Shown piece after piece: positions 740 through 20,567 of a stretch of DNA of 64,000 nt. This DNA comes from Brevundimonas vitisensis (lineage in GTDB: Bacteria; Pseudomonadota; Alphaproteobacteria; Caulobacterales; Caulobacteraceae), in assembly GCF_016656965.1 (NCBI RefSeq), contig NZ_CP067977.1:2070501-2134500 (forward strand). The letters run 5' to 3'. How positions within the stretch are numbered: the stretch's first letter is position 1; every line of letters starts with the position of its first letter. Both the position numbers and the translations under genes were made by a program. The notes beneath the pieces were generated by a model. The model was not told the origin of the DNA. It searched no databases and saw only the letters and a program-made list of their open reading frames with translations.

Positions 740-1786
740 TTAGGACGCCTTCTGCTGAGTGGATTTGAAGGTGGCTTCGTCCTGGCCGAGCGCGCGGCAG
801 ACAGCCCGCTCCTCATCGGTCAGGTTTGAGCCGGCCTTGGTCTCGATCGCCTTGTTCGCGGCTCGGCTCTCGGCCGCACCGACGATCACGGGCAGTTTGG
901 GCACCAGCTGGTTGAACCGCTCCAGCCCGCCTTCCACCCGGCACATGGCGCGATAGTCGTCGGCCGAGTCCGGCGTGATCTTGCCCGCGTCCTGGGCCGC
1001 GCTGATCGCGGTCTCGATCGCCTTCTCGTGTTCGGCCGCGTCACGCGCCTTGAGCGCGGCCTCTGCCGTTTCGGCGCGGTTGATGGCGGCGGTCAGGTCG
1101 GCGCGCGGCGCATAGCTGGTCAGGTCCACGCTGCCGGGTCGATTGGCAGCCTTCGCCTCGGTCACGGCGGTGACGATCTCCGCCTCCGTCGCGGTGGCCG
1201 CCAATCCGAGGACGGCGGCCAGTTGGGTTGCGATGCTCAAGGTTTTCTCCGGGGGCTCGCGGTGAGGCTGATCCGTGCCCACGCCGTCGGATTGACGGTT
1301 CAAGGCCGTGAGCAGCAGGTTCGGGGTGTTGGTCAGGGCGACGCTCAGCAGACGGCGGATCACGCCGGTCAGCTTGTCGAAGGCGAAGACGGGAGAGACG
1401 AACCGATATTCGGGCGGCTTGCCCTGGACGGCGGCGCGGCCACGGACGGTCCAGTTCACACGGCCCCAGATCGAGCCGCCTTCGCGGACCATCAGCTCCT
1501 CGATCCAACCGGCAGCCGGGGCATCCAGGCCCAGCGGCGCGCGCACCTCGGTCGAGTGCTCCCAATCCAGCGGCATGGGATGGCTAGCCACCGGGGTGTC
1601 GGCCACCACCTGCTCGGGCGAGGGATTGATCCAGGCGCGGCCATCGCGGCCGATGACGTCGAACCCGGCCGGGATCAGCTCGATCCAGTCGGGGGCGTCG
1701 CCTTCGTCGTTCAGGGCGATCTGCTGGACGCCGGTCGCCAAGGTGGCCGGTTCGATGTCAGAAGGGGTGGACGAACGCTTGTTCAT
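740..1786 (-). CDS. Mu I-like head maturation protease/scaffold
   Basis: 348 residues. The N-terminal half carries the Mu I protease pattern, including PMPLDWEHSTE near residues 75-85, then APAAGWIEELMVREGG and GKPPEYRFVSPVFAFD. The C-terminal half is alanine- and charge-rich and probably helical, as expected of the scaffold portion made from the same gene in Mu. It should process head proteins during prohead maturation. It opens the I-cement-head cluster. A 22-base palindrome lies 34 bases upstream of the start, where Mu has its I promoter. The upstream region shows only a weak ribosome site (ATGGGG). Confidence 0.88.
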   Translation of the reverse strand: MNKRSSTPSDIEPATLATGVQQIALNDEGDAPDWIELIPAGFDVIGRDGRAWINPSPEQVVADTPVASHPMPLDWEHSTEVRAPLGLDAPAAGWIEELMVREGGSIWGRVNWTVRGRAAVQGKPPEYRFVSPVFAFDKLTGVIRRLLSVALTNTPNLLLTALNRQSDGVGTDQPHREPPEKTLSIATQLAAVLGLAATATEAEIVTAVTEAKAANRPGSVDLTSYAPRADLTAAINRAETAEAALKARDAAEHEKAIETAISAAQDAGKITPDSADDYRAMCRVEGGLERFNQLVPKLPVIVGAAESRAANKAIETKAGSNLTDEERAVCRALGQDEATFKSTQQKAS

Positions 1787-1819
1787 GGCCCCATGATCGG
1801 GGCGTCGGCAGGCTCATCC

Positions 1820-1841
1820 GACCCCGAAAGGTTTCGGGGTC
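1820..1841. promoter_or_regulatory. Palindrome upstream of the I gene (activator site or terminator)
   Basis: Ten-base perfect arms GACCCCGAAA and TTTCGGGGTC around a two-base centre. It lies between the divergent I gene (starts 1786) and the plus-strand cargo gene (starts 1862). The 8-base core arms CCCCGAAA / TTTCGGGG recur exactly at 10609-10626 upstream of the lysis genes. No T-run follows on either strand, which weakens a simple terminator reading. The two positions equal those of the late promoters PI and Plys in Mu, so binding by the Mor-family activator is a reasonable alternative. Confidence 0.5.
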
Positions 1842-1861
1842 AGAGAGACACAGGGGTCCAG

Positions 1862-2506
1862 ATGATGACTGTTGCCCCGTCCGATCCCACGGGGATCATC
1901 CAAGTCGCCGCCGGGGTTAAGCAGATCGTCGATGCCTTCGCACCGCTCATTACGGTGGTCGGTGCGCTGGGTGGCGTCTGGCTGGGCAGCTGGATGCAGA
2001 CCAAGCACGCTGCCCATACCTACCAACAGCAGCGAATCGATCGGCTGGATGACGAGCGGCGTGTTGCACTCACTAGCGCAACCAAGGCGGCCGAGCTGAA
2101 GGCTTTTTCGGCCTATCGAGTAGCGACCCTTCTCGAAGCCTATGCGAAGGACTGCGCGCGGAAAAGCAACGTGCGTTCCTCACACATAGACAGCTTCACT
2201 TTTCCAGACGAGATCGATTGGGTGCCCTTGGGACCTCTTCTAGCAGCGAGGGTTCGCGACTTTGAGACTTCGGTCGAACTCGTCTGGAATTCGACTGGCC
2301 ACCGGATCGAAGCCACCGACCGATCTGACGATACTCGCATGCAAAAGATGAAGCGCATCTATGAGGAAGCCATCGCCAAGTTGGGCCTTGAGGCATGGGA
2401 ACTGGCTGTCGATCTGCGCCAAGACGCGGGCTTGCCAGAGCTTCAGATTCCGCCCCTCGGATGGAACTTCATCGACACGCTTAGGTCACGGATACCAGCG
2501 GACTGA
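1862..2506 (+). CDS. Membrane-anchored cargo protein of unknown function (moron-like)
   Basis: I do not recognise this family. The gene runs opposite to all surrounding late genes and sits between the I protease and the thermonuclease. The ORF is open further upstream, but the paired ATGs at 1862/1865 are the first that clear the I gene, giving 214 residues. There is one likely membrane segment near residues 25-46 (PLITVVGALGGVWLGSWM), then a long charged helical region (about 50-90) and a C-terminal domain containing FPDEIDWVPLGPLLAARV. Single-membrane proteins with a cytoplasmic helical body are common products of lysogenically expressed prophage cargo, for example in superinfection exclusion. 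That role is inference. The 3' part looks less GC-rich than neighbouring head genes. Confidence 0.6.
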   Translation: MMTVAPSDPTGIIQVAAGVKQIVDAFAPLITVVGALGGVWLGSWMQTKHAAHTYQQQRIDRLDDERRVALTSATKAAELKAFSAYRVATLLEAYAKDCARKSNVRSSHIDSFTFPDEIDWVPLGPLLAARVRDFETSVELVWNSTGHRIEATDRSDDTRMQKMKRIYEEAIAKLGLEAWELAVDLRQDAGLPELQIPPLGWNFIDTLRSRIPAD

Positions 2507-2547
2507 AGGTGCGGCCATAAAGCGGGTTAGTTGGTGTGGCTGGCATC

Positions 2548-2961
2548 TCAGCGTCGATCGCGCCGCCACTCATGCGGCAGCTGGAACCGCAGCGACCAGA
2601 TACCCCGCCGCGCGGCCCGCGCCTCGGTCTCGTCCCCGACATAGATCTCGGAATAGCGCCTGAAGGCGACGGCCTGCCCGGCCTGGACCATGTCGCGGGC
2701 CAGGTCGTGGCGACCGATCCGGCAGACCGCCACCACCCGTCGATAACGATCGCGGCTCTCGCCCTCGCACCGGACAGGCCGCCCGGCGATCCGGCGCACC
2801 AGCCATTCGCGGGCGTTGACCCCGCAGCGGACGGAGCCGCACATCTGCGCCAGCTCGGGCGCGTCGATGCCGAACAGGCGCACCCGTTCCTCGCCGATCC
2901 GCAGGGTGTCGCCGTCGATGACGTGGGCCGGTCCGGAAACGACGATGGCGGGATCGAACAT
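2548..2961 (-). CDS. Thermonuclease (SNase-like) family protein
   Basis: 137 residues, the size of a lone staphylococcal-nuclease domain. The hallmark VIDGDTLRIGEERVRLFGID-APE occupies about residues 14-37 and supplies the calcium-binding aspartate, one catalytic arginine and the glutamate. A second basic cluster (GESRDRYRRVVAVCRI) follows, where the family carries its second arginine. No signal peptide is evident, so it probably acts inside the cell or in the particle on DNA or RNA. It sits among head genes between F and I and could degrade host nucleic acid or process DNA. The 238 bases to the F stop upstream (2962-3199) hold no convincing gene. Confidence 0.85.
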   Translation of the reverse strand: MFDPAIVVSGPAHVIDGDTLRIGEERVRLFGIDAPELAQMCGSVRCGVNAREWLVRRIAGRPVRCEGESRDRYRRVVAVCRIGRHDLARDMVQAGQAVAFRRYSEIYVGDETEARAARRGIWSLRFQLPHEWRRDRR

Positions 2962-3199
2962 GCTGCACCTCGCGGTCGGGGCCGGACCCCCGCCTAAGCC
3001 CGTTTAAGGCCGCCTGAGACCGCTTCTAGCCCATTTCCGCTCCAACGGCCCACCCCGACCCCGCCAGCGGCGTCCTGACGCGATTTTCGCGGGCTGGCGT
3101 TTTGCGCCCTTCGCGCCTAGTTTGGGTGGGCGACGGGCGAGCCATTGTTCAGCCGGGCTTGCTACCGCGAGGGCGTAACGTCCCTCCGCCCGCCGCACC

Positions 3200-4420
3200 T
3201 CAGTCCTTCCCACGTCGCCGCAGGCGCTCCTCCCGATCGCTGTCGATCGCGAACAGGGACAGGACCACGACTTCACCCTGGCGGGTGACGTTGACGGTCA
3301 GGGTCCACAGCCCGTCGTCCATCCGCATCACATAGGTTCCGCGCCGATCCCGCCGCTCGACCAGCTCGCCGCCGTCCAGGATGGCCTGCACGCGGGCGAA
3401 GTCGGCCGGGCGTGTGGGCCGTGCCCCGCGCCGGTGCCCGTCCACGATCTTGGCCACATAGTCGCTGCCCACCATGGCGACCGGGTGCGATGCGTCCAGG
3501 GCCGCGCGGGTGGCCTCGGTCATCACGGCCACCGGGGCCAGGGACCGGCGCGCCTTTGCATTGGGCGCGCGCGCCGCCGGTTGCGCGGCCAGGGCCTCGG
3601 GCATGGACCCGGCCCAGAAGTCGGACATCAGGGCGCGTGCCGCCGGTTCGCCCGCCGAGGCCAAGTGCTCGGTGAGATTGGTCATCAGGGTGCGCGATCG
3701 GTTCAGGCCGGGGTTGGTGTGCCAGCCCGGATCGATGCCGACCGGAACCTGCACCCGCTCGAAGCTGCCGTCGTCGCGCACCCGGCGATAGGTCTTCGTC
3801 TGGACCTCGAACGGAGCGGTGACGCCCCGGCGCTCGGCCTCGGCCCTGGTGATCTGCCGGAGATGGCATTTGCAGCCCCATCCATTGGGCGGAAACCATG
3901 CGTCCCAGACCGGGTCGTCCACCGGGCGAACGACACCCTCCATCGCCGCATGCTCGGGCCGGTGGTTCACCGAAGGTCCGAGGCCATAGAGCCAGAACGG
4001 CAGCACAGCCTTGGTCCTCTGGCTTCTCTCCCACTGCCCGGCCGCGCGGGCGCTGCGCAGGTTCGCGTCATAGATAGTGCGCAGGCGACGCGGCGATCCC
4101 AGCTCCCGATCCCTGACCTCGCCCGTCGCCGGGTCGGCCATCGCCACCTGACCCCACCAGCCCAGGCGTTGCAGCTCGGGCTTCAGCTCGCGCGACCAGG
4201 TCTCATAGGGCACGCCCTGGTCGATCGCCCACTGAAGGCTCTCGCGGATGGTGCCCAGCACATCGGCCTGGACCGCCTTGGCCACGGTGAAGGCATGGGC
4301 ATGCTCCTGCCCCCAGACCTCTGACCATCGGAACGCCGGACGATCGCCCTTCTCGCGCAGATAGGCACTGACCTCGGGCGAGGGCTCGCTGCCGAAGGTA
4401 AAGCCAGGGCGATCAGCCAT
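3200..4420 (-). CDS. Mu F-like minor head protein with C-terminal RNase-toxin-like domain
   Basis: 406 residues. The first 270 match the Mu F / SPP1 gp7 family of minor head proteins, which are packaged in few copies near the portal. The marker WFPPNGWGCKCHLRQITRAE near residues 175-195 is the family's PP-GWGC-C motif. After an alanine-rich linker, residues about 300-406 form a separate compact domain (SDYVAKIVDGHRRGARPT through VVVLSLFAID). It resembles the phage barnase/EndoU/colicin-RelE-like nuclease modules known at this position in some F proteins. Its start overlaps the preceding small gene by 8 bases. Confidence 0.85.
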   Translation of the reverse strand: MADRPGFTFGSEPSPEVSAYLREKGDRPAFRWSEVWGQEHAHAFTVAKAVQADVLGTIRESLQWAIDQGVPYETWSRELKPELQRLGWWGQVAMADPATGEVRDRELGSPRRLRTIYDANLRSARAAGQWERSQRTKAVLPFWLYGLGPSVNHRPEHAAMEGVVRPVDDPVWDAWFPPNGWGCKCHLRQITRAEAERRGVTAPFEVQTKTYRRVRDDGSFERVQVPVGIDPGWHTNPGLNRSRTLMTNLTEHLASAGEPAARALMSDFWAGSMPEALAAQPAARAPNAKARRSLAPVAVMTEATRAALDASHPVAMVGSDYVAKIVDGHRRGARPTRPADFARVQAILDGGELVERRDRRGTYVMRMDDGLWTLTVNVTRQGEVVVLSLFAIDSDREERLRRRGKD

Positions 4421-4707: not shown

Positions 4708-6339
4708 TCAGGCCTCCGGATCGTCTTTGGCGTCACCCTGGGCGCGGGCCTTGAACAGGGCGGCACCCAGGCTCTTGGCCAGGGCCGTCGGGTCCATGCC
4801 TTCGACGGCCCCGACCAGGCCCGCTTCGAATTCCGCATAGCTGTTGGCGGTCCTGGCCAGCTGTTCAAACGGCTCAACCATGGGGTCCAGGTCTTCGGTC
4901 CACCCTTCCAAGAGATCGTCGCGCAGATCGTCCATCCGATCGCGCGGCTCGGCCTCGGCCTGGGCACGGTTCAGCGCCCGCTCGGCGGGGGCCTTGGGCG
5001 CATCGGGCTCGGCCGTCACCGGCGACGGCGTCTTGGCCTGCGGTCCCAGCAGTTCGTCATCGTCCTCGGGCGCATCCAAGCCGAACTTCTCGCGCATCTG
5101 GCTGGCCTTGACCTTCAGGCCCCGATCGATCAGCGGGGCCAGGGCTTCCGACAGCGCCTTCAGGTCTTCGGTTTCCGGCGTCTCCAGCGACAGGCCGGGC
5201 ACCTTGGCGTCTGGGCCATAGTTGAACCGGACGAACGGCTCGATGACGTCGCGCCGGATGGTTCGGGCCAGCTGTTTGGCATCGCTCTCGCAGATGTCGC
5301 CGCGCACCCCGTCCAGCACCTTGGCCTGGGCATAGCCGCCGCCGGACTGCATGGTCGAGGTGCCGTCCTGACCGACGATCGCCTTGGACACCTGCTTGTC
5401 CAGGAACTCGGCGAACCGCTGATAGAGGTCCGCGCCCGAGCCGGTGCCGCCCTCGGCCTTAATGAACTCGATCTCCATCGCCTTGGGGATCACGGCGGCG
5501 CAGTCGGTGCCGATCATCGACACCGCATTGAACAGGATGTCGACGTCCTTGGGCGTGGCGCTGGCGTCGTATTTGCCCAGGCGCAGCGGCTGGCCATAGC
5601 TTTCGGCGAAGGTCGCCCAATCCTTGACCCCATAGAACTTGAACAGGAAGGCCCAGGCGGCCAGGCGCGCCAGGCCGCCCCGCACCGGCAGGCCCATCTT
5701 CAGATTGGGCCGGTGGATCGCAAACTTGTAGGGGCGCAGCTCGACGCCCTCGGCCATGTCGGCCGGGTCGAGCATCCGCAGCTGGTGACCGGTCTGGCGG
5801 TCCCACTGAAACCACCGCGGATCGCGCCAGGCGTATTGGTTCGGCACCCACCGCCTGCCGGTATCCCAGCCGATCTCGACCACGCCATAGCCCTTGCCCA
5901 GGGCATCCAGCAGACCGGCACCGAGATCTTCGAACGCCTCGTCCTCGACGATCTCGGTCCGCACGGCCTCGGCGATCTCGATGTCCCTGGCGTCGTCCGA
6001 CGCGGGCCGGACGTTGCGGTCCAGGCCCAGCACCGCCAGCTTCCGCTTCCCCAGCTCGGAGGCATAATGCCAGTCGCGTTCCTCCATCTCCTCGGCCAGG
6101 GTCAGGTAATCGTGGGCGTCGCCCTCGGCCGCGCGCTGAAGCAGGGATGCCAGCCGCTGCGGCGTCAGACCGGCCGCCACGGTGGTGTTGTTCCAGGCTT
6201 GGCGCACGCCCGTCGTTGTCGGCCGAGCGACTACCTCGGCGATCTCGGACTTGGTCGCCGCCGCCGCCACGATCATCGGCCGGCCATAGAGATCAATCAG
6301 GCCCGACTTGGTCAGGCCCGGCTGAAGAAGATCGGTCAT
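4708..6339 (-). CDS. Portal protein, DUF935 (Mu gp29-like)
   Basis: 543 residues, normal for Mu-type portals. The N-terminus opens with MTDLLQPGLTKSGLIDLYGR, and the middle holds the DUF935 core (EIGWDTGRRWVPNQYAWRD, then FKFYGVKDWATFAESYGQP and GGYAQAKVLDGVRGDI). The portal forms the dodecameric ring through which DNA enters and leaves the head. The C-terminal 100 residues are acidic and low-complexity. It starts on the last base of the terminase stop codon (6339 shared), so it is translated directly after terminase. Confidence 0.93.
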   Translation of the reverse strand: MTDLLQPGLTKSGLIDLYGRPMIVAAAATKSEIAEVVARPTTTGVRQAWNNTTVAAGLTPQRLASLLQRAAEGDAHDYLTLAEEMEERDWHYASELGKRKLAVLGLDRNVRPASDDARDIEIAEAVRTEIVEDEAFEDLGAGLLDALGKGYGVVEIGWDTGRRWVPNQYAWRDPRWFQWDRQTGHQLRMLDPADMAEGVELRPYKFAIHRPNLKMGLPVRGGLARLAAWAFLFKFYGVKDWATFAESYGQPLRLGKYDASATPKDVDILFNAVSMIGTDCAAVIPKAMEIEFIKAEGGTGSGADLYQRFAEFLDKQVSKAIVGQDGTSTMQSGGGYAQAKVLDGVRGDICESDAKQLARTIRRDVIEPFVRFNYGPDAKVPGLSLETPETEDLKALSEALAPLIDRGLKVKASQMREKFGLDAPEDDDELLGPQAKTPSPVTAEPDAPKAPAERALNRAQAEAEPRDRMDDLRDDLLEGWTEDLDPMVEPFEQLARTANSYAEFEAGLVGAVEGMDPTALAKSLGAALFKARAQGDAKDDPEA

Positions 6340-7817
6340 CAGTGCATTCCTCGGCGTCCGCCGTATCGCGACCGGCTGGCCTGATCAGACTGGCGGTCGC
6401 CCGGCCGGGGTCCGCCTCGGCCGACGCCGCGATAGTCGTAGGGTTGGTAAGGGTTGCTGGCGGCGCGGCAAGCGAGCGCCGAGGCCCAGAACTCGTCGGC
6501 GTGGACCTCGCCGTCATCGACGATCCGGATCGCGCCGCCGACGCTGCCCTGTTGCTTGATCGCCCGGAGGTCGGTGCGCAGCGCGGGCACGGGCGGCAGG
6601 CGGATGCGGCACGTCTCCACCCGCTCCTTCAGCGCGATGGCCAGGTCTAGGCGCGACGGTCCGGTCAGCAGCTGGCCCACGATGCGCGTGGTGCCGTAGC
6701 GTAGCTGCAAATCCTCGACGACCTTCTCGCCCATTCCGGTCTGATCGACCCAGGCTGCGACCAGGCGGCGGTCGCGGACTATGGCGTCAAAGGCATCGTC
6801 CTGCGCGCGGAAGGTGGCCCCGCGTTCCAGCCAGCGGTCCCGCATCCACAGGACATCGCCGACTTCCTCGAACCCGTGGATCACGGGCAGATCGCGGCGG
6901 CGCGCGACGTCCCGGCCGACATAGAACAGACCCCCGGCATATAGCTCGGGCTTGCCCGCGTCGGGATGTTCGCAGGCGGCCAGGGCGGCGGGATCGAGCC
7001 AGCTGCCCGAGCCCTGTTTGGGGATGCAGTCCAGTTCTTCGCCCGCGTTGTCGCCATAGGTGTCGCGGACGTCGGCGATCCACTCTTCCTTGGTCATCCC
7101 TCGGTGGCGGTTGGTCAGCTTGACCCGTTCGTAGAGGCCGTCCTCGATCGCTTCGTTGAAGGTGATCGTGAGGTGCGCGCCCTTGCGCTTGCCTGTGCGG
7201 ATGTCGTCGATCAGCAGGTTGAACGGGTTCGAGATGCCGTTGTGGGTCGAGACCACCACCACCTGGCCGCCCCACATCAGTAGCGCGATTGCCGCCTTCA
7301 GAACCTCGGCCAGTTCGCGGTGAAAGGCCGCCTCGTCGATGATCACCAGGCCTTGCTTGCCCCGCAGCGCGCGGGGCACGGACGGCAGCGCCACGATCTT
7401 GAAGCCGGACGCGAACCGAAGGCGGAAGGCCTGAACCTTCTCGCCGTCGCCATCCAGGACTTCCTCATCGACGGCCTCGGCCGCCATGCCGAAGGCGCGC
7501 GCCCACATCGCGCAGACGTCGATGAACTCGCGCGCCATCTCCTGGTCGTAGCCCATATACCAGGCGTTCATGCCGCCCGAGGATCGCTGGGCGGCGGCCT
7601 TCAGCACGGCATAGGCGGCCAGCGCCCAGGTCAGGCCAATGCGTCGGCTCTTCTCGATCGCCAGCAGCGAGACGCCCGTCTTCAGCAGGGCCATGGCCGA
7701 GGCCTGATACTTCAGCAACAGATCGCCGGGCGGCAGGCGGGCAAATGCCGCCTCGGCCTGCTCGCGTTCCCGCGCCTTTTCGGCGACGGCCGCGCGCGAC
7801 TGGTCGCGCAGCTGCAT
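6339..7817 (-). CDS. Terminase large subunit (Mu gp28-like)
   Basis: 492 residues. It has the non-canonical Walker A of Mu-type terminases (EKSRRIGLTWALAAYAVLK, near residues 54-72) and Walker B GLVIIDEAAFH (about 156-166), followed by a coupling motif VVVVSTHNGISNPFN. The C-terminal part (about 290-450) should be the RNase-H-like nuclease, beginning GLFYVGRDVARRRDLPVI. This motor cuts and pumps phage DNA, including adjoining host DNA, into proheads. It follows the DUF3486 gene with a one-base overlap. Confidence 0.93.
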   Translation of the reverse strand: MQLRDQSRAAVAEKAREREQAEAAFARLPPGDLLLKYQASAMALLKTGVSLLAIEKSRRIGLTWALAAYAVLKAAAQRSSGGMNAWYMGYDQEMAREFIDVCAMWARAFGMAAEAVDEEVLDGDGEKVQAFRLRFASGFKIVALPSVPRALRGKQGLVIIDEAAFHRELAEVLKAAIALLMWGGQVVVVSTHNGISNPFNLLIDDIRTGKRKGAHLTITFNEAIEDGLYERVKLTNRHRGMTKEEWIADVRDTYGDNAGEELDCIPKQGSGSWLDPAALAACEHPDAGKPELYAGGLFYVGRDVARRRDLPVIHGFEEVGDVLWMRDRWLERGATFRAQDDAFDAIVRDRRLVAAWVDQTGMGEKVVEDLQLRYGTTRIVGQLLTGPSRLDLAIALKERVETCRIRLPPVPALRTDLRAIKQQGSVGGAIRIVDDGEVHADEFWASALACRAASNPYQPYDYRGVGRGGPRPGDRQSDQASRSRYGGRRGMH

Positions 7818-8374
7818 CAGGCGACGCCGAGGACGGCGCGGCTGATCGCATCGACCGTGTCAGCCGTCAGACCCTTGTCACGGCCGACCGCTTTGACCGC
7901 CTTCACGGCATCCTTGGCCACCTCCACCCGCACCTTCAGCAGGCGGTCGGCATCGATCTTCTGGGCACTGGCCAGGGATTGCAGCGAGCGCGCCAGAAAC
8001 ATCGTTTCTTCAGCGTCGAAGGTCACCGGCCCCGCCTCGCCGGTCTCGTCGGGCGAACCGGTTAGCATCTGCATGACGATGCCGTGCATCAGCTCGATGT
8101 TCAGGCGGCCGACGCGATTGTCCGCATCCTCGCCGAACCGGCCGACCAGGGCCGTCGCGATCTCGCGCGACCGGCGCAGCTGCTCGCCGACTTCGGCCAG
8201 CCCTTTGATGTGGCGGCCCAGCGCCGAACGGGAAACGTCCGCGCCCAGCTCGTGCAGCTTCGCCAGGATCGCGTCGATCGTGACGCCCTCTGCGCGCAGT
8301 TTACCGATCAGCTCGCGCACCTCGGGCGGCAGCTTGTCGATAGACGACGGGGAACGGCGGGTGGCGCGGGCCAT
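7817..8374 (-). CDS. DUF3486 protein (Mu gp27-like, small terminase candidate)
   Basis: 185 residues. The N-terminus (SSIDKLPPEVRELIGKLRAE) and the following helix-turn-helix (ITIDAILAKLHELGADVSRSALGRHIKG in outline) match DUF3486, found directly before the large terminase in Mu-like phages. The rest is helical and rich in arginine. The role as the DNA-recognising small terminase is inferred from position and the helix-turn-helix. It ends one base into the terminase start and follows the gp26-like gene by 4 bases. Confidence 0.85.
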   Translation of the reverse strand: MARATRRSPSSIDKLPPEVRELIGKLRAEGVTIDAILAKLHELGADVSRSALGRHIKGLAEVGEQLRRSREIATALVGRFGEDADNRVGRLNIELMHGIVMQMLTGSPDETGEAGPVTFDAEETMFLARSLQSLASAQKIDADRLLKVRVEVAKDAVKAVKAVGRDKGLTADTVDAISRAVLGVA

Positions 8375-9706: not shown

Positions 9707-10011
9707 GGTTGCCCCCCGCGCCTTATGGCGATCTGAACCCGCGCGGCCTGCACCAGCTGGGTCAGCTCGTAGGCGGTGGCCCCGACGACATAGATCAGGC
9801 CGATGAAGATCACCGTGCCGATCAGCCCGTAGGCGATGTGCTGCATGGCCAGCGCCTGAGCGTCCGACATCGCTGAGCCGCCCAGCGACCAGACGATGAA
9901 GCCGACGATGGCCAGGGCGATGAGGGTGACGCCGAAGCTCCACCACCGCCGCCACAGCCACTCGATCTCCTTCAGGCGCGGGACCGGCGGAACCAGGGGG
10001 CTGTCGGTCAT
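9703..10011 (-). CDS. Holin-like two-segment membrane protein
   Basis: 102 residues. The start at ATG 10011 overlaps the amidase stop by 4 bases. After a charged, tryptophan-rich N-terminus (EIEWLWRRWWSF), two hydrophobic helices lie at about residues 25-45 (VTLIALAIVGFIVWSL) and 60-82 (YGLIGTVIFIGLIYVVGA). The C-terminus is basic. Size, topology and position between endolysin and spanins fit a holin, the protein that times lysis by permeabilising the inner membrane. I do not recognise a named holin family, so the function is inferred from context. Confidence 0.65.
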   Translation of the reverse strand: MTDSPLVPPVPRLKEIEWLWRRWWSFGVTLIALAIVGFIVWSLGGSAMSDAQALAMQHIAYGLIGTVIFIGLIYVVGATAYELTQLVQAARVQIAIRRGGQP

Positions 10012-10469
10012 CGAATGGCCGTGGCCTTCGCCCACCAAGCCGCCACGTCGAACGTCGGGCAGAACTTCACCCATTCGCCGGGCGTAACCTTCCCATCGCC
10101 GTTGCGGTCGGGAGACAGGTCGCGATGTCCGCAGATGCGGGCCTTCGGATACCGGGCGGACAGCGTGGTCAGCAGGGTCTCCAGCGATGCGTATTGAGCG
10201 GGCGTGAAGTTGGTCTCGGCCGTCATATCCGGCTTGACTCCGCCGACCAGGCAGATGCCCAGCGAGCCGGTGTTGTGCCCGACGACGTGGGCACCGGTGA
10301 CCTCATCCGGACGGCCTTTTTCCACCCGGCCGTCACGTCGGATGACGTAGTGATAGCCCACGTCGTGCCACCCCTTGGCTTTGTGCATGGCGCGGATTTC
10401 GGCCACGCCGATGTCGCGGGCGGCAGGCGTCGCCGAGCAGTGGACCACCAGCTTGCTGATCGCCCTCAC
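10008..10469 (-). CDS. Endolysin, N-acetylmuramoyl-L-alanine amidase (Amidase_2 / T7 lysozyme type)
   Basis: 153 residues. The zinc ligands of T7-lysozyme-type amidases are visible: His10 (KLVVHCSAT), His115 (ICGHRDLSPDRNGDG) and Cys137 (KFCPTFDV). A YHYVIRRDGRVEKGR segment near residues 39-53 is also typical. It cuts the bond between muramic acid and the stem peptide. No signal peptide is present, so it needs the holin-like neighbour. The start is GTG 10469 with a poor ribosome site. A 20-codon reading frame upstream ends on this GTG. Confidence 0.92.
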   Translation of the reverse strand: MRAISKLVVHCSATPAARDIGVAEIRAMHKAKGWHDVGYHYVIRRDGRVEKGRPDEVTGAHVVGHNTGSLGICLVGGVKPDMTAETNFTPAQYASLETLLTTLSARYPKARICGHRDLSPDRNGDGKVTPGEWVKFCPTFDVAAWWAKATAIR

Positions 10470-10608
10470 GGCCGCACCGCCGCCGCTGCGCCGCGCAACG
10501 GGCGGGTTGTCGATCGGCTCTGGGTCATGGAAAGAGCGAAGCCCCTGTTGACGCGCCGCCCGGCGCGGACGCAGGGTCAGAAAGGCCAGCTTGGGGGGCT
10601 CACTCCCA

Positions 10609-10626
10609 CCCCGAAAACTTTCGGGG
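10609..10626. promoter_or_regulatory. Palindrome between mor-like and lysis genes (activator site or terminator)
   Basis: CCCCGAAA-AC-TTTCGGGG, 8-base perfect arms. It starts 9 bases after the end of the Mor-like gene and lies about 140 bases upstream of the endolysin. The arms are identical to those at 1822-1839. No T-run follows, so a rho-independent terminator is possible but not typical. In Mu the lys promoter that needs an activator of the Mor/C family lies at this place. The remaining interval 10470-10608 holds no convincing gene. Confidence 0.5.
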
Positions 10627-10634
10627 CCGGGGCA

Positions 10635-11057
10635 CTACTCGCCGAACAGATCGGCCTCGCGCGCATCGCTCGTGTCGATCCCTAGCTCACGATCGCGCTG
10701 GTGACGAATCTCCACCGTGCGGATGTGGATGCCCAGGGCGCGCGCCGCCTCGGCATTGGTCCGGCCCTCGCGGCGCATCGCCCGCATGGCGGCCTTGCGG
10801 CGGCGGACCGAGGACGTCGGCCCCATCGGGATCACGATCTTGCCGGGGCTCAGGATGTCCGCAACCATCCGGGCCGCCGCCAGGCCCAGCGTCAAGGCCA
10901 AGGGATGGCTCTCGTCGATGCCGTCCGCCTGGGGGATGTAGATCTCGCGCCCGCCATAGGCCGCAGCCAGGCTCAGCGCCACGCCGCCGCCGCACGCGTC
11001 CGCGACCCGCTGCAACAGCTCGGGCCAATCCGCCGATGTTTCGGCGGCTGAGGTCAC
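10635..11057 (-). CDS. Mor/C-family transcription activator
   Basis: 140 residues. The N-terminal dimerisation half (PELLQRVADACGGGVALSLA, then GGREIYIPQ) and the C-terminal helix-turn-helix (MRREGRTNAEAARALGIHIRTVE) match the Mor family. In Mu, Mor turns on the middle promoter, and its relative C turns on the late promoters. Only one such gene is visible, so it may do both jobs or a second may lie elsewhere. Its start overlaps the preceding small gene by 4 bases, and a palindrome follows immediately. Confidence 0.88.
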   Translation of the reverse strand: MTSAAETSADWPELLQRVADACGGGVALSLAAAYGGREIYIPQADGIDESHPLALTLGLAAARMVADILSPGKIVIPMGPTSSVRRRKAAMRAMRREGRTNAEAARALGIHIRTVEIRHQRDRELGIDTSDAREADLFGE

Positions 11058-14274: not shown

Positions 14275-15246
14275 TCACGCCGCCTGGTCTGCGGCCCGCT
14301 GGGCATAAGCCTCGCGGATCAGGGTGGCGGTCAAAGGCTCGGACGCCATCGCCGCCATCCGCTTGGCCAGCAGCAGCGTCTTGGTCAGGCCGCGCAGGGC
14401 ACCGGGCTTGCTGGCGATCTCGCCGCACAGCTTGACCAGCTGGGTCTCGGTCACCCCATGCGCCGCCGCGATCACCACGGCATCCTTGGGATCGGGGCGG
14501 CTCAGGCGGACGCGATAGCCGATGCGGCTGTGGAACTGCGCAAAGGCCGACCGGCGCGAACCGTCGAACAGGCTGAAGACGCTCTCGTCGCCGCTGAAGA
14601 CCAGGCCGACGCCCGTCTTGTCGTGGATCGACCGGAACTCGTCGACGGCCTGCTGGGAAAGGTGCTGCGCCTCGTCGATGACCAGCAGCCCGCCTGACGT
14701 CGCCTTGGCCGCGACCCGGCGCGACAGCGCTTGGGGCGTCCCCCGTGCGTCCTGGTCGCCCATGGCCCCCAGAACCTCGATCAGGGCATTAGGCACGCCG
14801 CGCGTGGACGGGGCCATCGTGGCGACCCAGACACGAGGACGCAGTTTCCGGTATTGCCGAGTGGTCTCGGTCTTGCCCATTCCGGGGCCGACCCCGACCA
14901 CCGTCAGGTCGCCGAACACCTGGGCGTGCTCCAGCCCGGCCCAGATGCGGCGCGCCGTCGGCGTCTCCTGGAACATTGGGGCGACCGGAATGGTAGCGGC
15001 CATTTCGGCCTGTTCCTTCCGCGCGACCAGGAACCGGTTCACCACCGATGCGACCTCGTCGATCCGCTTCTGGGAGCCTGGGTATTTGTCCGCCAGCCAG
15101 GGCCCGAACGTGCCCTCGGGCACCTCGCACTCTTCGGCGAACTGTTTGGCGGTCCAGCCGTGGCGGTCGATGAAGGCGCTGGTTTCCGCGCGCAGCTGGC
15201 CCAGCTCGTGGGGGCTGAAGGTGGTTTTGCCGAGGTTGGGTGTCAT
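14275..15246 (-). CDS. Mu B-like transposition target-selection ATPase
   Basis: 323 residues. An N-terminal helix-turn-helix (TAKQFAEECEVPEGTFGPWL, about residues 32-51) is followed by an AAA+ core with Walker A GVGPGMGKT (118-126) and Walker B LLVIDEAQH (187-195). The C-terminal domain ends in a basic helical region. In Mu, B forms ATP-dependent filaments on target DNA, stimulates the transposase and gives target immunity. It follows transposase A by 66 bases. Confidence 0.95.
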   Translation of the reverse strand: MTPNLGKTTFSPHELGQLRAETSAFIDRHGWTAKQFAEECEVPEGTFGPWLADKYPGSQKRIDEVASVVNRFLVARKEQAEMAATIPVAPMFQETPTARRIWAGLEHAQVFGDLTVVGVGPGMGKTETTRQYRKLRPRVWVATMAPSTRGVPNALIEVLGAMGDQDARGTPQALSRRVAAKATSGGLLVIDEAQHLSQQAVDEFRSIHDKTGVGLVFSGDESVFSLFDGSRRSAFAQFHSRIGYRVRLSRPDPKDAVVIAAAHGVTETQLVKLCGEIASKPGALRGLTKTLLLAKRMAAMASEPLTATLIREAYAQRAADQAA

Positions 15247-15312: not shown

Positions 15313-17304
15313 TCATTCGACCAGCCGCAGATGGTCCCGTTGCTCTCGCGCCAGGGCCTCGGCGTATCGGTCGTCAAAGCGGATGGGATCGGCCTCGGCG
15401 GCCAGGGCAGCAGCCCCGCCCAGCGAGCCCAGACCGGTGATCATGCGGACCGCCCGAGGCGCGGGCGCGGGTGCCACGTCGTCCTCGTCCAGCTCCGGCA
15501 GCAGGGCGGCGACATCGCTGGCCGACAGACGCCGCTCGACCGCCAGCTGATCCTTCTGTGCCTTGATGAAGGCCGCCCGCGCCCGGTTGTGCTCGCGCGC
15601 CGCCGTCGCATCGGCAAAGCCGGACGCGGCCTGAAGCTCGGCGGCCCCCAGATAGGCGCCAGCCCGCGAATAGACATGGACCGGTTCTTCATGCAGCCGG
15701 TCCGGGTCGAACCGGACGATCAGCTTCTCGCCGCGATGCTCGTTCAGGAACGCCGCCCAATAGACGTTGTCGAACAGGCGCAGCGACCCGGACCGTTTCT
15801 CCGCCGTCACGCCCTCGTGGGCCAGCATGCACATCCGCAGCTGGGCCTCTGTGGCGGTCCGGATCACGGCACCGGCGCGAGACGCCTCATAGGCCTGGTC
15901 ATAGGACAGCACGCCCCGGCAGACCCGCGTCCGACGCCCGACCTTGGCATTGTGCTGGGCGATGACCTTGGTGACGACGGCCTTGAAGACATGCAGGGGA
16001 ACGGCGCGGGACTGATAGTCCTCGGGCTTGGCCATGGGCGAGTTGCCGGTATAGGCACCCTGGAACGCCGGGTGCCTCGCCCCGTGGTCGCACAGCGTCT
16101 CGAACGCCCGCTCGATCGGCTTGGACTGACCCGAATACGGGCGCGTCCAGCGCACCTCGACGCCCAGGGCGGTCAGGACGCCAACCGGCTCTTCCTTCTT
16201 GACCTTGAACCGGAACCGGTTCGGCGTGCCGCCCGTGATCCACTTCGAGGCAAAGCCCCGCCCGTTGTCCAGCCAGGCCAGCTCGGGCACGCCGTGGTCG
16301 CGGAACAGATCGCCAAAGGCCAGGCGCACCGTGTCCGCGCCTTCGTTTTCGGCCAGACGCCACGACAGGATTTTCCCGGAATACAGGTCCTGAATGGCCA
16401 GCATCAGCGGGCGCACCGGCTTGTCCCTTCCGGGCCAGGCGACAAAGACATCCCAGCGGTGGCCGTCCGCGTTCACCGCCTGCATGGCGTGGAACTGGCT
16501 GCGGTCGCGCACCATCGGCGGATACATCCGGGCGTGGACCTCGGTCCCCTCGCGCGCGATCACCCGCAGCGCTTCCGGGATCTCGGTGTCCAAGCGACGC
16601 TTCATCGTCTTGGCCGAGGGCAGCGCCCAGCCATGCAGGGCGGCGGCATCGGTCAGGCGGTCCCAGCAGCTCTCGAACGAGGGCTGCGACAGGCGCAGAT
16701 AGTCGCCTTTCAGGAACTCCCAGGCATCGGGATCACAGTCGGCCGTGGCCGTTCGGCCCTGAGTCTGCGGGACTAGCGCGGGCAGCCAGTCACCCCGGCT
16801 CAGATGGCGCACCACCTTCTGCCAGTTATAGACCGTCTGGACGCTGAACTTGTGCTCCTTGCCTTCCCCCGCGCGGAACTTCAGACCGTGCAGGTGGACG
16901 ACATGGGCGACTGCGCCGGTGGCCGAATGCCCGGCCTGGCGCAGGGCCTCGACCTCCTTCAGAATATCCAGCCGGAACCGCGCCACGGCCTTCTTGCACT
17001 CGGGCAGGCCGTCGAACGCGGCCCATAGTTCGGACCGGGCCACGATTGGCCGGGCGGCGGTGTCCAGATTGACCACCAGGCCGCGCGCGACCAGCGCCGC
17101 GACGGCCTGAACCGGCAACACCGAATAGTGATATTCCATCCCGCCGCCCTTGCCCTTGCGGGCGCGGGCCAGCGGCTGGCCTGACGCATTGGTGCGCGAG
17201 CCCCAGCCGAGCTGATCGGCTGTCTCGTTGATCTTGCGCTTGGTCGTCGGCAGGCCCGGCAGGGTCTGCATGGCCAGGTCTTGGGCGGTCCACCACGCCT
17301 TCAT
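15313..17304 (-). CDS. Mu A-like DDE transposase
   Basis: 663 residues, the same size as Mu A. The N-terminus (KAWWTAQDLAMQTLPGLPTT) is the Mu-type end-binding winged helix. The catalytic triad is visible at Asp280 (VNADGHRWDVFV), Asp346 (AWLDNGRGFASKW) and Glu398 (SKPIERAFETL), with spacing like Mu A Asp269/Asp336/Glu392. It pairs the prophage ends and joins them to target DNA for integration and replication. It follows the 17301-17762 gene with a 4-base overlap, and all landmark motifs appear intact. Confidence 0.97.
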   Translation of the reverse strand: MKAWWTAQDLAMQTLPGLPTTKRKINETADQLGWGSRTNASGQPLARARKGKGGGMEYHYSVLPVQAVAALVARGLVVNLDTAARPIVARSELWAAFDGLPECKKAVARFRLDILKEVEALRQAGHSATGAVAHVVHLHGLKFRAGEGKEHKFSVQTVYNWQKVVRHLSRGDWLPALVPQTQGRTATADCDPDAWEFLKGDYLRLSQPSFESCWDRLTDAAALHGWALPSAKTMKRRLDTEIPEALRVIAREGTEVHARMYPPMVRDRSQFHAMQAVNADGHRWDVFVAWPGRDKPVRPLMLAIQDLYSGKILSWRLAENEGADTVRLAFGDLFRDHGVPELAWLDNGRGFASKWITGGTPNRFRFKVKKEEPVGVLTALGVEVRWTRPYSGQSKPIERAFETLCDHGARHPAFQGAYTGNSPMAKPEDYQSRAVPLHVFKAVVTKVIAQHNAKVGRRTRVCRGVLSYDQAYEASRAGAVIRTATEAQLRMCMLAHEGVTAEKRSGSLRLFDNVYWAAFLNEHRGEKLIVRFDPDRLHEEPVHVYSRAGAYLGAAELQAASGFADATAAREHNRARAAFIKAQKDQLAVERRLSASDVAALLPELDEDDVAPAPAPRAVRMITGLGSLGGAAALAAEADPIRFDDRYAEALAREQRDHLRLVE

Positions 17305-19398: not shown

Positions 19399-19441
19399 TT
19401 CACTATCGTGAGTGATACGCCTCCCACGCGATTCACGTCAA
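19399..19441 (-). promoter_or_regulatory. Predicted early promoter Pe with overlapping operator
   Basis: On the minus strand TTGACG (19441-19436) and TATCAC (19417-19412) are separated by 18 bases, a good sigma70-type promoter firing toward ner. Its start point would fall near 19405. The operator-like dyad TTCAC-TATC-GTGAG (19399-19412) covers the -10 and start region. A perfect 12-base palindrome CCACGATCGTGG (19442-19453) sits just upstream of the -35. The promoter therefore lies inside the first codons of the repressor gene. Occupation by the repressor would block early transcription. Confidence 0.55.
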
Positions 19442-20094
19442 CCACGATCGTGGATGATGATGATGATTTGGCACGCGGCTTCTCGGAGCGGCTTCAGCTT
19501 GCCATGGGCACTACGTCACAGGCGGTCGTAGCCAAGCGGGCACGCATCTCGACCGGTGCCATGAGCAAGTATCTCAATGGCAGCGAGCCGGGCCTGCTGA
19601 AGGCCGCCCGCTTGGCGAAGGCTCTCGATGTCAGCTTGCATTGGCTGGCGACCGGAGAAGGCGCGCCCAGCGCTTCGTCGTTCGGTTATGTGGGGCTGCC
19701 CATATTCGACGTCCGCCTTTCGGCCGGCACGGCCAGCTTCTCCGACGCAGCCAGGGAGATCGGCACCATGCCGTTCGATATGGACCTGCTGCGGGCCTTG
19801 GGCAGAGCCAACGGGGACGGTCTGGGCGTCCTGGAAGCCGAAGGCGACTCGATGGAGCCGTTGATCAGCGACGGTGCCCGCGTCGTCATTGACTTCAAGG
19901 ATACCCGCCTGCGTGAGAAGGTATTCGCCTTTCGTTTCGACGACGAACTTCGCCTGAAGCGCCTGCGCCGCACCATCGACGGCATCGAGATTTTGTCCGA
20001 AAATCCCCGCTACGAGCCCGAGCTGCTGTCCGGCGAGGCCCTGAACCGTTTCCAAATCCTCGGCCGCGCCCTTTGGTCGGGGTCCATGCTTTAA
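19408..20094 (+). CDS. Prophage repressor, HTH plus S24 peptidase (CI/LexA-like)
   Basis: 228 residues from GTG 19408, with GAGGAAAG about 9 bases upstream; the GTG is itself part of an operator-like dyad. The N-terminal helix-turn-helix spans about residues 36-65 (SQAVVAKRARISTGAMSKYL). The C-terminal S24 domain has the Ala-Gly cleavage site (RLSAGTASF), the serine in EGDSMEPL and the lysine in RLKRLRR. Repressors of this type self-cleave when RecA is activated, so the prophage is probably induced by DNA damage. Mu itself has a different repressor. Three small genes follow in the same direction. Confidence 0.93.
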   Translation: MSDTPPTRFTSTTIVDDDDDLARGFSERLQLAMGTTSQAVVAKRARISTGAMSKYLNGSEPGLLKAARLAKALDVSLHWLATGEGAPSASSFGYVGLPIFDVRLSAGTASFSDAAREIGTMPFDMDLLRALGRANGDGLGVLEAEGDSMEPLISDGARVVIDFKDTRLREKVFAFRFDDELRLKRLRRTIDGIEILSENPRYEPELLSGEALNRFQILGRALWSGSML

Positions 20095-20102
20095 GGCTGC
20101 AC

Positions 20103-20567
20103 ATGATCCGCCGCTCGATCAGCCCAATCATTTTCGCCTGCGCCTGGGTGGTTGGTTGCGGGGACGTGGCCGCCCCGCCATCGCCATCCGTCGAGATCGA
20201 ATCGGTCAAGCTGCTCGCCTGCCCCGATCCGGACATCGGTCGAACCTGCGAGTTCGACCACGTCAAGAGTCCCGAATATCTCGCCGACGCCCTGAAGGGC
20301 GACTACCAGGCGCAGCGCAACATCTCCTACGCCCACACCTCTGGCGTCAGCTGGATCGTCGCGCGACCCGTCCAGGGATGCGGCTGGCGGATGGTGATCA
20401 TGGTCAGTCGCCCGGCCGGTGCGACCTATGATGACGCGGGCATGTATCGCATCCAGTGCGGCGACCTCAGCCCCGCCGACCTCGAACAGAGCAAGCGTCT
20501 CGCCCAGATCATCTATCGGCAAATTCACGGTGCCGACCTTCCGGCCCTCCCGCCCATCCCGGCCTGA
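20103..20567 (+). CDS. Prophage-encoded lipoprotein, unknown function
   Basis: 154 residues beginning 8 bases after the repressor stop. The N-terminus is a short lipoprotein signal (SISPIIFACAWVVGCGD), with the likely lipidated Cys at about residue 19. Four further cysteines (contexts LLACPDPD, RTCEFDH, GCGWRM, IQCGDL) may form disulfides in the periplasm. It is expected to be made in the lysogen with the repressor, making it a candidate for lysogenic conversion or envelope-level exclusion of other phages. No family was recognised. Confidence 0.65.
   Translation: MIRRSISPIIFACAWVVGCGDVAAPPSPSVEIESVKLLACPDPDIGRTCEFDHVKSPEYLADALKGDYQAQRNISYAHTSGVSWIVARPVQGCGWRMVIMVSRPAGATYDDAGMYRIQCGDLSPADLEQSKRLAQIIYRQIHGADLPALPPIPA

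Follow-up and report, generated by a model that had tools for sequence, protein, structure and literature searches.

Within a Mu-like prophage of Brevundimonas vitisensis, a single gene (1862-2506, + strand) runs against the head genes on either side of it. What does this gene encode, and why does it stand at this point? All positions refer to the window, which is the whole 64,000-nucleotide stretch analyzed (contig NZ_CP067977.1, 2,070,501 to 2,134,500). We regard it as fairly probable that the gene is a lysogenic-conversion moron, encoding a putative membrane exclusion or abortive-infection protein that shields the lysogen.

The Mu head homologs lie together on the minus strand: gene I, the head maturation protease (740-1786; PF10123, E 2.3e-53; phrog_328), F, a minor head protein (3200-4420; PF04233, E 6.1e-15; phrog_220), the Mu-type portal (4708-6339; PF06074, E 6.8e-101), the large terminase (6339-7817; PF17289 and PF03237), and a Mu gp27-like gene (7817-8374; PF11985). 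Checked from I to gp27, this arrangement bears out the earlier note, which had described an isolated plus-strand gene among oppositely oriented head genes. Farther along are MuB (14275-15246, -; PF09077), the MuA transposase (15313-17304, -; PF02914 and PF09039), and a CI/S24-type repressor (19408-20094, +; PF00717 and PF07022), whose end is overlapped by a co-directional ORF of the phrog_5882 family (20073-20567, +); GemA was also identified. The F-I gap measures 1.4 kb and contains, besides gene 1862-2506, a second cargo gene that the earlier note did not mention. This is a staphylococcal nuclease (SNase) homolog of 137 residues (2548-2961, -; PF00565, E 1.6e-14), which reads with the head genes; a search of the other loci at a threshold of E 1e-3 gave no counterpart. 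By sequence comparison, the F side of the gap carries a conserved noncoding element with CTAAG repeats (CTAAG..CGTTTAAGGCC, 2989-3025), which marks the limit of the cargo slot among close relatives.

The ORF of gene 1862-2506 starts with ATG at 1862, followed by a second ATG at 1865, and encodes 214 residues up to the stop at 2506. It forms the end of a frame that stays open for 492 codons from 1028, and since the DNA is 66% GC, ORF length is weak proof of a gene. The better argument for a real gene is that relatives of only 22-29% identity retain 12 invariant residues in an 11-sequence alignment (E92, A95, C98, A99, P115, W120, L123, G175, L176, A178, L185, and R186). Five of these (C98, W120, G175, A178, and R186) remain invariant when more remote members of 18-29% identity are aligned. 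As had been proposed, the protein features one hydrophobic segment (residues ~22-44) and a helical body; the AF2 model consists of a long helix (13-103) and three further helices (125-151, 157-189, and 203-209). Basic residues come after the hydrophobic stretch, which would place the body in the cytosol. The predicted topology is N out and C in, and the protein would act at the membrane. The AF2 fold is uninformative on function, we see no catalytic motif, and the protein matches no Pfam nuclease profile; its NCBIfam matches are all far below cut-off. Profiles of SLATT or S-4TM pore-forming effectors are absent from the Pfam matches up to E 1 and the PADLOC matches up to E 10, searches that remote kinship could escape. 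In composition, the gene (58.6% GC) differs from its surroundings, with a GC3 of 0.67 compared to 0.85-0.87 in five neighbors (I, SNase, F, portal, and the large terminase). It is foreign-looking, accessory, and reversed. A scan limited to sigma-70 type promoters yields no consensus match on either strand within 1600-3300, and no terminator is found on the + strand of the same interval.

A palindrome, TCCGACCCCGAAA-GG-TTTCGGGGTCAGA (1817-1844; arms 1817-1829 and 1832-1844), lies between gene 1862-2506 and gene I, about 30 bp upstream of the latter. Its core has only two exact copies in the 2.98 Mb genome, at 1821-1840 and, as found by exact-pattern search, at 10608-10627. The second copy is located between a Mor/C-type late activator candidate (10635-11057, -; PF08765, 27.2 bits against a cut-off of 24.9) and a lysis amidase (10008-10469, -; PF01510, E 2.7e-19), which is the first gene after it. 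The late promoters of phage Mu (lys, I, P, and mom) are under the control of activator C, whose sites lie upstream of the -35 element (PMC4461284). By that layout, the two copies occupy the positions expected of Plys and PI. A site upstream of I that is shared with the Plys position, in a phage with a Mor/C-family gene, is what a Mu-like PI would feature, and we read the palindrome as a putative site of the late activator at both promoters. No PP copy was detected in locus L019 at up to four mismatches.

The association with gene I extends to other phages. A strict test, which requires exact arms of at least 7 no farther than 130 bp upstream of I, detects a palindrome at 28 of 35 distinct loci, compared to 4.9% of 700 shuffles and 3 of 35 regions upstream of F. 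The prophages G009 and G080 fail by a single inner mismatch, and the site is nevertheless present in both. Each group appears to have its own core upstream of I (TGACANNTGTCA, ACCCCGAA, GGTAGC, and CCGGAAG; L030-L076, L011, and L015), and these are likely to be co-evolving late-activator sites. Palindromes also stand upstream of I in phages with a short gap. We therefore rule out that the palindrome is the cargo's own signal. The earlier note was right that a palindrome adjoins the gene; the element belongs to the upstream region of gene I. Gene 1862-2506 would then have been inserted at the end of the Plys unit and the start of the PI unit. An extra reversed gene located at the seam of two late transcription units breaks no operon, so insertions are tolerated at that point.

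The contents of the slot were compared across 65 loci collected with the F protein of the window (47 viral contigs, 15 genome contigs, G009, G080, and the window itself). Both F and I were found in 55 and the other 10 were dropped; judged by the sequences at their ends, 45 gaps are distinct, with some near relatives still included. Of these, 23 measure 216-470 bp and are too short for gene 1862-2506, and 22 range from 605 to 2873 bp. Gaps are likewise small in the second Mu-like prophage of this genome (F-I, <200 bp), in phage Mu (G-I, ~0.2 kb), and in Ochrobactrum phage POA1180 (~0.3 kb, no annotated gene); in Rhodovulum phage P1, a short forward ORF (61 residues) is all that the slot contains. 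A search of the genome contigs with gene I returned no match. In 15 of the 22 long gaps the cargo matches a family or includes an ORF seen more than once, 12 times reversed and 3 times forward; the other seven (L052, L063, L067, L074, L095, L100, and L102) have ORFs that we could not assign. Reversed cargo is most often of the phrog_5882 type, present in seven other phages (by profile in L092, L096, and L101; by blastp in L050, L055, L076, and L097). It also includes an unnamed family of ~109 residues (G009 and L030), the family of gene 1862-2506 (G080 and the window), and a DUF2806 and DUF2971 pair (L051). The forward cargo comprises PD-Lambda-5 A and B (L059; E 9.7e-127 and 8.5e-118), an SLFN_AlbA_2 (Schlafen/AlbA_2) gene (L068), and an L045 ORF found again in L057. 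The L057 gap, at 470 bp, falls in the short group, so that this group is not wholly gene-free.

With 23 of the related gaps too short and the others variable, a structural gene can be ruled out. Accessory status, which the earlier note had assumed, is what the comparison returns; its opposite, a conserved structural gene carried by all close relatives, was sought and not found. Position between genes that are adjacent in relatives, together with the deviant GC3, is what characterizes a moron. The occurrence of phrog_5882 both beside the repressor and as reversed cargo links the reversed slot, indirectly, to genes of the lysogen type.

The protein itself proved difficult to place. As a single query, it retrieves only itself among 5.8 billion proteins, and no family member turned up in viral contigs with search patterns that reach close relatives only. 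Genome searches identified members in 5 further genomes of 200, tblastn found relatives in 12 plasmid records, and a profile search collected 260 proteins, with no Pfam domain among the 120 matches listed. The PADLOC profile PDLC05063 (PDC-S67; 203 positions, similar in length to the family members) matches the protein weakly (E 9.5e-7, 26.4 bits) and matches all 11 aligned members, with a best E of 3.4e-46. Applied genome-wide at E 1e-3, the profile lists only the genome's other member (2453207) and misses gene 1862-2506; both are listed with alignment A3, which includes the 1862-2506 protein. The link therefore runs through intermediates, and the protein appears to be a remote member of candidate family PDC-S67. 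The profile occurs in 13 of 398 genomes of the order, the present one included, and in none of 14 control genomes. PMC12988326 describes PDC families as products of a guilt-by-embedding approach, mostly without experimental proof; we found no paper that treats PDC-S67 by name. The database search that the earlier note suggested thus divides: the defense collection yields a remote candidate family, and 50,697 phage records yield no member.

The cellular relatives were examined at 17 loci (one lacking an ORF of 90 residues at the match, one a weak match). A panel of 14 proteins, some of them from two of these loci, served as tblastn queries. Five of the 17 lie in or beside restriction-modification (RM) genes. 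Type I hsd genes occur in the fetched stretch at 4 of 17 loci and in 0 of 20 control stretches, the controls being round positions in five genomes and some only 8-14 kb long. In G413 and G130 the family gene is located inside the hsd operon, overlapping the end of hsdS by 4 nt and preceding hsdR. In G133 there is again a 4-nt overlap, here with the gene of an MmeI-like protein (E 1.7e-140). The other 12 loci have no hsd match; MmeI was tested in G133 only. Genomes G000 and G016 carry one RM system at 91% identity, and their family members are only 27% alike. We note that the members in L089 (G000, 2453213) and L014 (G016) sit at the same side of this type I system, and that a further DNA methylase (PF01555) directly adjoins the second family member in L089 (6825-8990). 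In G047 the relative stands beside a serine recombinase.

Six of the 12 plasmid records were read, L023 and L025 by annotation only. PADLOC defense genes lie within 6 kb of the relative in four of the six: Gabija in L020, a CBASS cyclase with a 4TM effector in L021 and L022, and PD-T4-5 in L024. Annotations of L023 and L025 include no defense gene. Each of the six relatives is located upstream of an integrase or resolvase gene, at a distance of no more than ~1 kb. Embedding in or beside known defense systems is thus found for part of the relatives, and not for gene 1862-2506 itself.

By tblastn with the window protein, slot copies occur only in G080 and the window. G080, another prophage of the genus, holds its relative in the same slot and orientation at 28-31% identity (29% over 188 residues), and has a truncated gene I. 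The 109-residue family takes the slot instead in G009 and L030, and L031, judged by eye, begins with it. Contig G068 carries a family member followed by a 109-residue gene, and the two are flanked by the familiar slot ends, the I-side leader (97% identity to G009 over 78 bp) and the F-side element (94% over 68 bp). Neither F nor I has a significant match on its 15 kb, and the contig contains matches to a tail fiber (E 2.1e-4) and an internal virion protein (E 8.2e-14). Both slot ends without an F or I match suggest that the cassette may have moved to an unlike phage, though this is one contig only. The cassette, slot ends included, lies at 13267-14455 of L016, where no F or I gene is recognizable.

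These observations can be assembled into a model. Gene 1862-2506 would have been acquired horizontally and inserted into the Mu-like prophage as an independently transcribed unit, presumably with its own promoter and expressed in the lysogen. Its product is predicted to be anchored in the inner membrane by a single N-terminal transmembrane helix and to carry a long helical stalk and a helical bundle. A membrane anchor joined to a helical body for sensing or assembly would suit a protein that excludes phage DNA as it enters or one that acts abortively at the membrane, and we cannot choose between the two. Most likely, the protein would protect the lysogen against other phages, as the earlier note had supposed.

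Other roles deserve consideration. The gene could protect the incoming phage from host immunity such as restriction, after the manner of the anti-CRISPR genes that Mu-like phages of Pseudomonas carry in this slot. In JBD30, AcrF1 and a winged-helix gene separate the G-type gene from the protease gene, the anti-CRISPRs of Mu-like Pseudomonas phages are found in a region of plasticity that is low in GC (PMC4378225), and the present genome does contain a type I RM system. However, some relatives within cellular RM operons or beside defense genes are a better fit to defense than to counter-defense. Moreover, the JBD30 genes run with the head genes and gene 1862-2506 runs against them, and neither of the two slot genes scanned (1862-2506 and SNase) was recognized as a helix-turn-helix partner. 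We consider counter-defense unlikely. It is also conceivable that the late activator acts both ways from a symmetric site between divergent genes, so that gene 1862-2506 is driven together with I and encodes a late lytic or virion-associated membrane protein (holin-like, involved in DNA ejection, or envelope-modifying). The leader common to unlike reversed genes would agree with this. A late function is hard to reconcile, however, with the many related gaps too short for the gene, with relatives that reside in RM operons or on plasmids, where the annotated neighbors include no phage gene, and with a lysis amidase encoded elsewhere (10008-10469). This makes such a protein quite unlikely.

The recombination genes near all six plasmid relatives and the serine recombinase of G047 recall a maintenance or entry-exclusion protein of plasmids or mobile elements that was captured by the phage. 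Yet the chromosomal relatives in RM operons have no such direct neighbor, and four of the six plasmid loci also have defense genes, which leaves this origin of function very unlikely. Finally, the low GC3, which suggests recent arrival, and the restriction of slot copies to G080 and the window would be expected of a passenger that has no function at present and persists in a slot where insertions do no harm. An intact frame and key residues retained at 22-29% identity argue against a passenger, which we hold to be highly improbable. A lysogen-protecting membrane protein remains our preferred reading of gene 1862-2506.

A broader proposal is more tentative, and we put it forward as a possibility that we rate below even. 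The Plys-PI seam of transposable phages may be a general hot spot for defense and counter-defense, in which reversed cargo serves the lysogen (defense and exclusion) and forward cargo serves the infecting phage. Gene 1862-2506 would then encode a new membrane-bound defense protein that needs no partner in prophages but teams up with restriction systems in cells, and the cassette, together with the palindrome of the gene I promoter, could move to unrelated phages such as that of G068. The seam gives a reason why insertions are tolerated at the slot. The slot can be located from two conserved genes, which makes it a place to seek new defense, exclusion, and counter-defense genes in a large group of phages. 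Gene 1862-2506, as a phage-borne member of a defense-candidate family, is easy to clone.

Among known systems, the closest is PDC-S67, a single-gene phage-defense candidate of PADLOC-DB. All 11 aligned members match it, their lengths are similar, and some relatives lie inside RM operons; the window member differs in being divergent (26 bits) and phage-borne. PrrC-type genes sit inside type I RM operons. The G413 and G130 relatives, after hsdS and before hsdR, occupy a comparable embedded place, but gene 1862-2506 encodes a membrane protein that matches no nuclease profile. In Pseudomonas phages, the slot has already been recognized as a site of accessory genes: in JBD30, AcrF1 stands directly in front of the protease gene, the same place as here, and the region is low in GC in the phages of PMC4378225, which include D3112. 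Compared to the anti-CRISPR slot, gene 1862-2506 is reversed, its family is a defense candidate, and no Aca-type partner was recognized in the two slot genes. In the open-license literature, including PMC9519451, PMC4378225, and PMC9936078, we found no description of the slot being used by defense-type or reversed genes in alphaproteobacterial Mu-like phages. Since the slot is known from Pseudomonas phages and this use was not found described, our finding combines known kinds of elements with an explanation for the place of the gene. PD-Lambda-5, a validated defense system (PMC9519451), occurs in the same F-I slot (L059), and its proteins are unrelated to that of gene 1862-2506. The P2 prophage hot spots, as presented in PMC9519451, likewise hold defense cargo that changes from phage to phage while the slot and its conserved flanking genes stay fixed; here, the phage is instead transposable and Mu-like, and the slot lies at a late-promoter seam.
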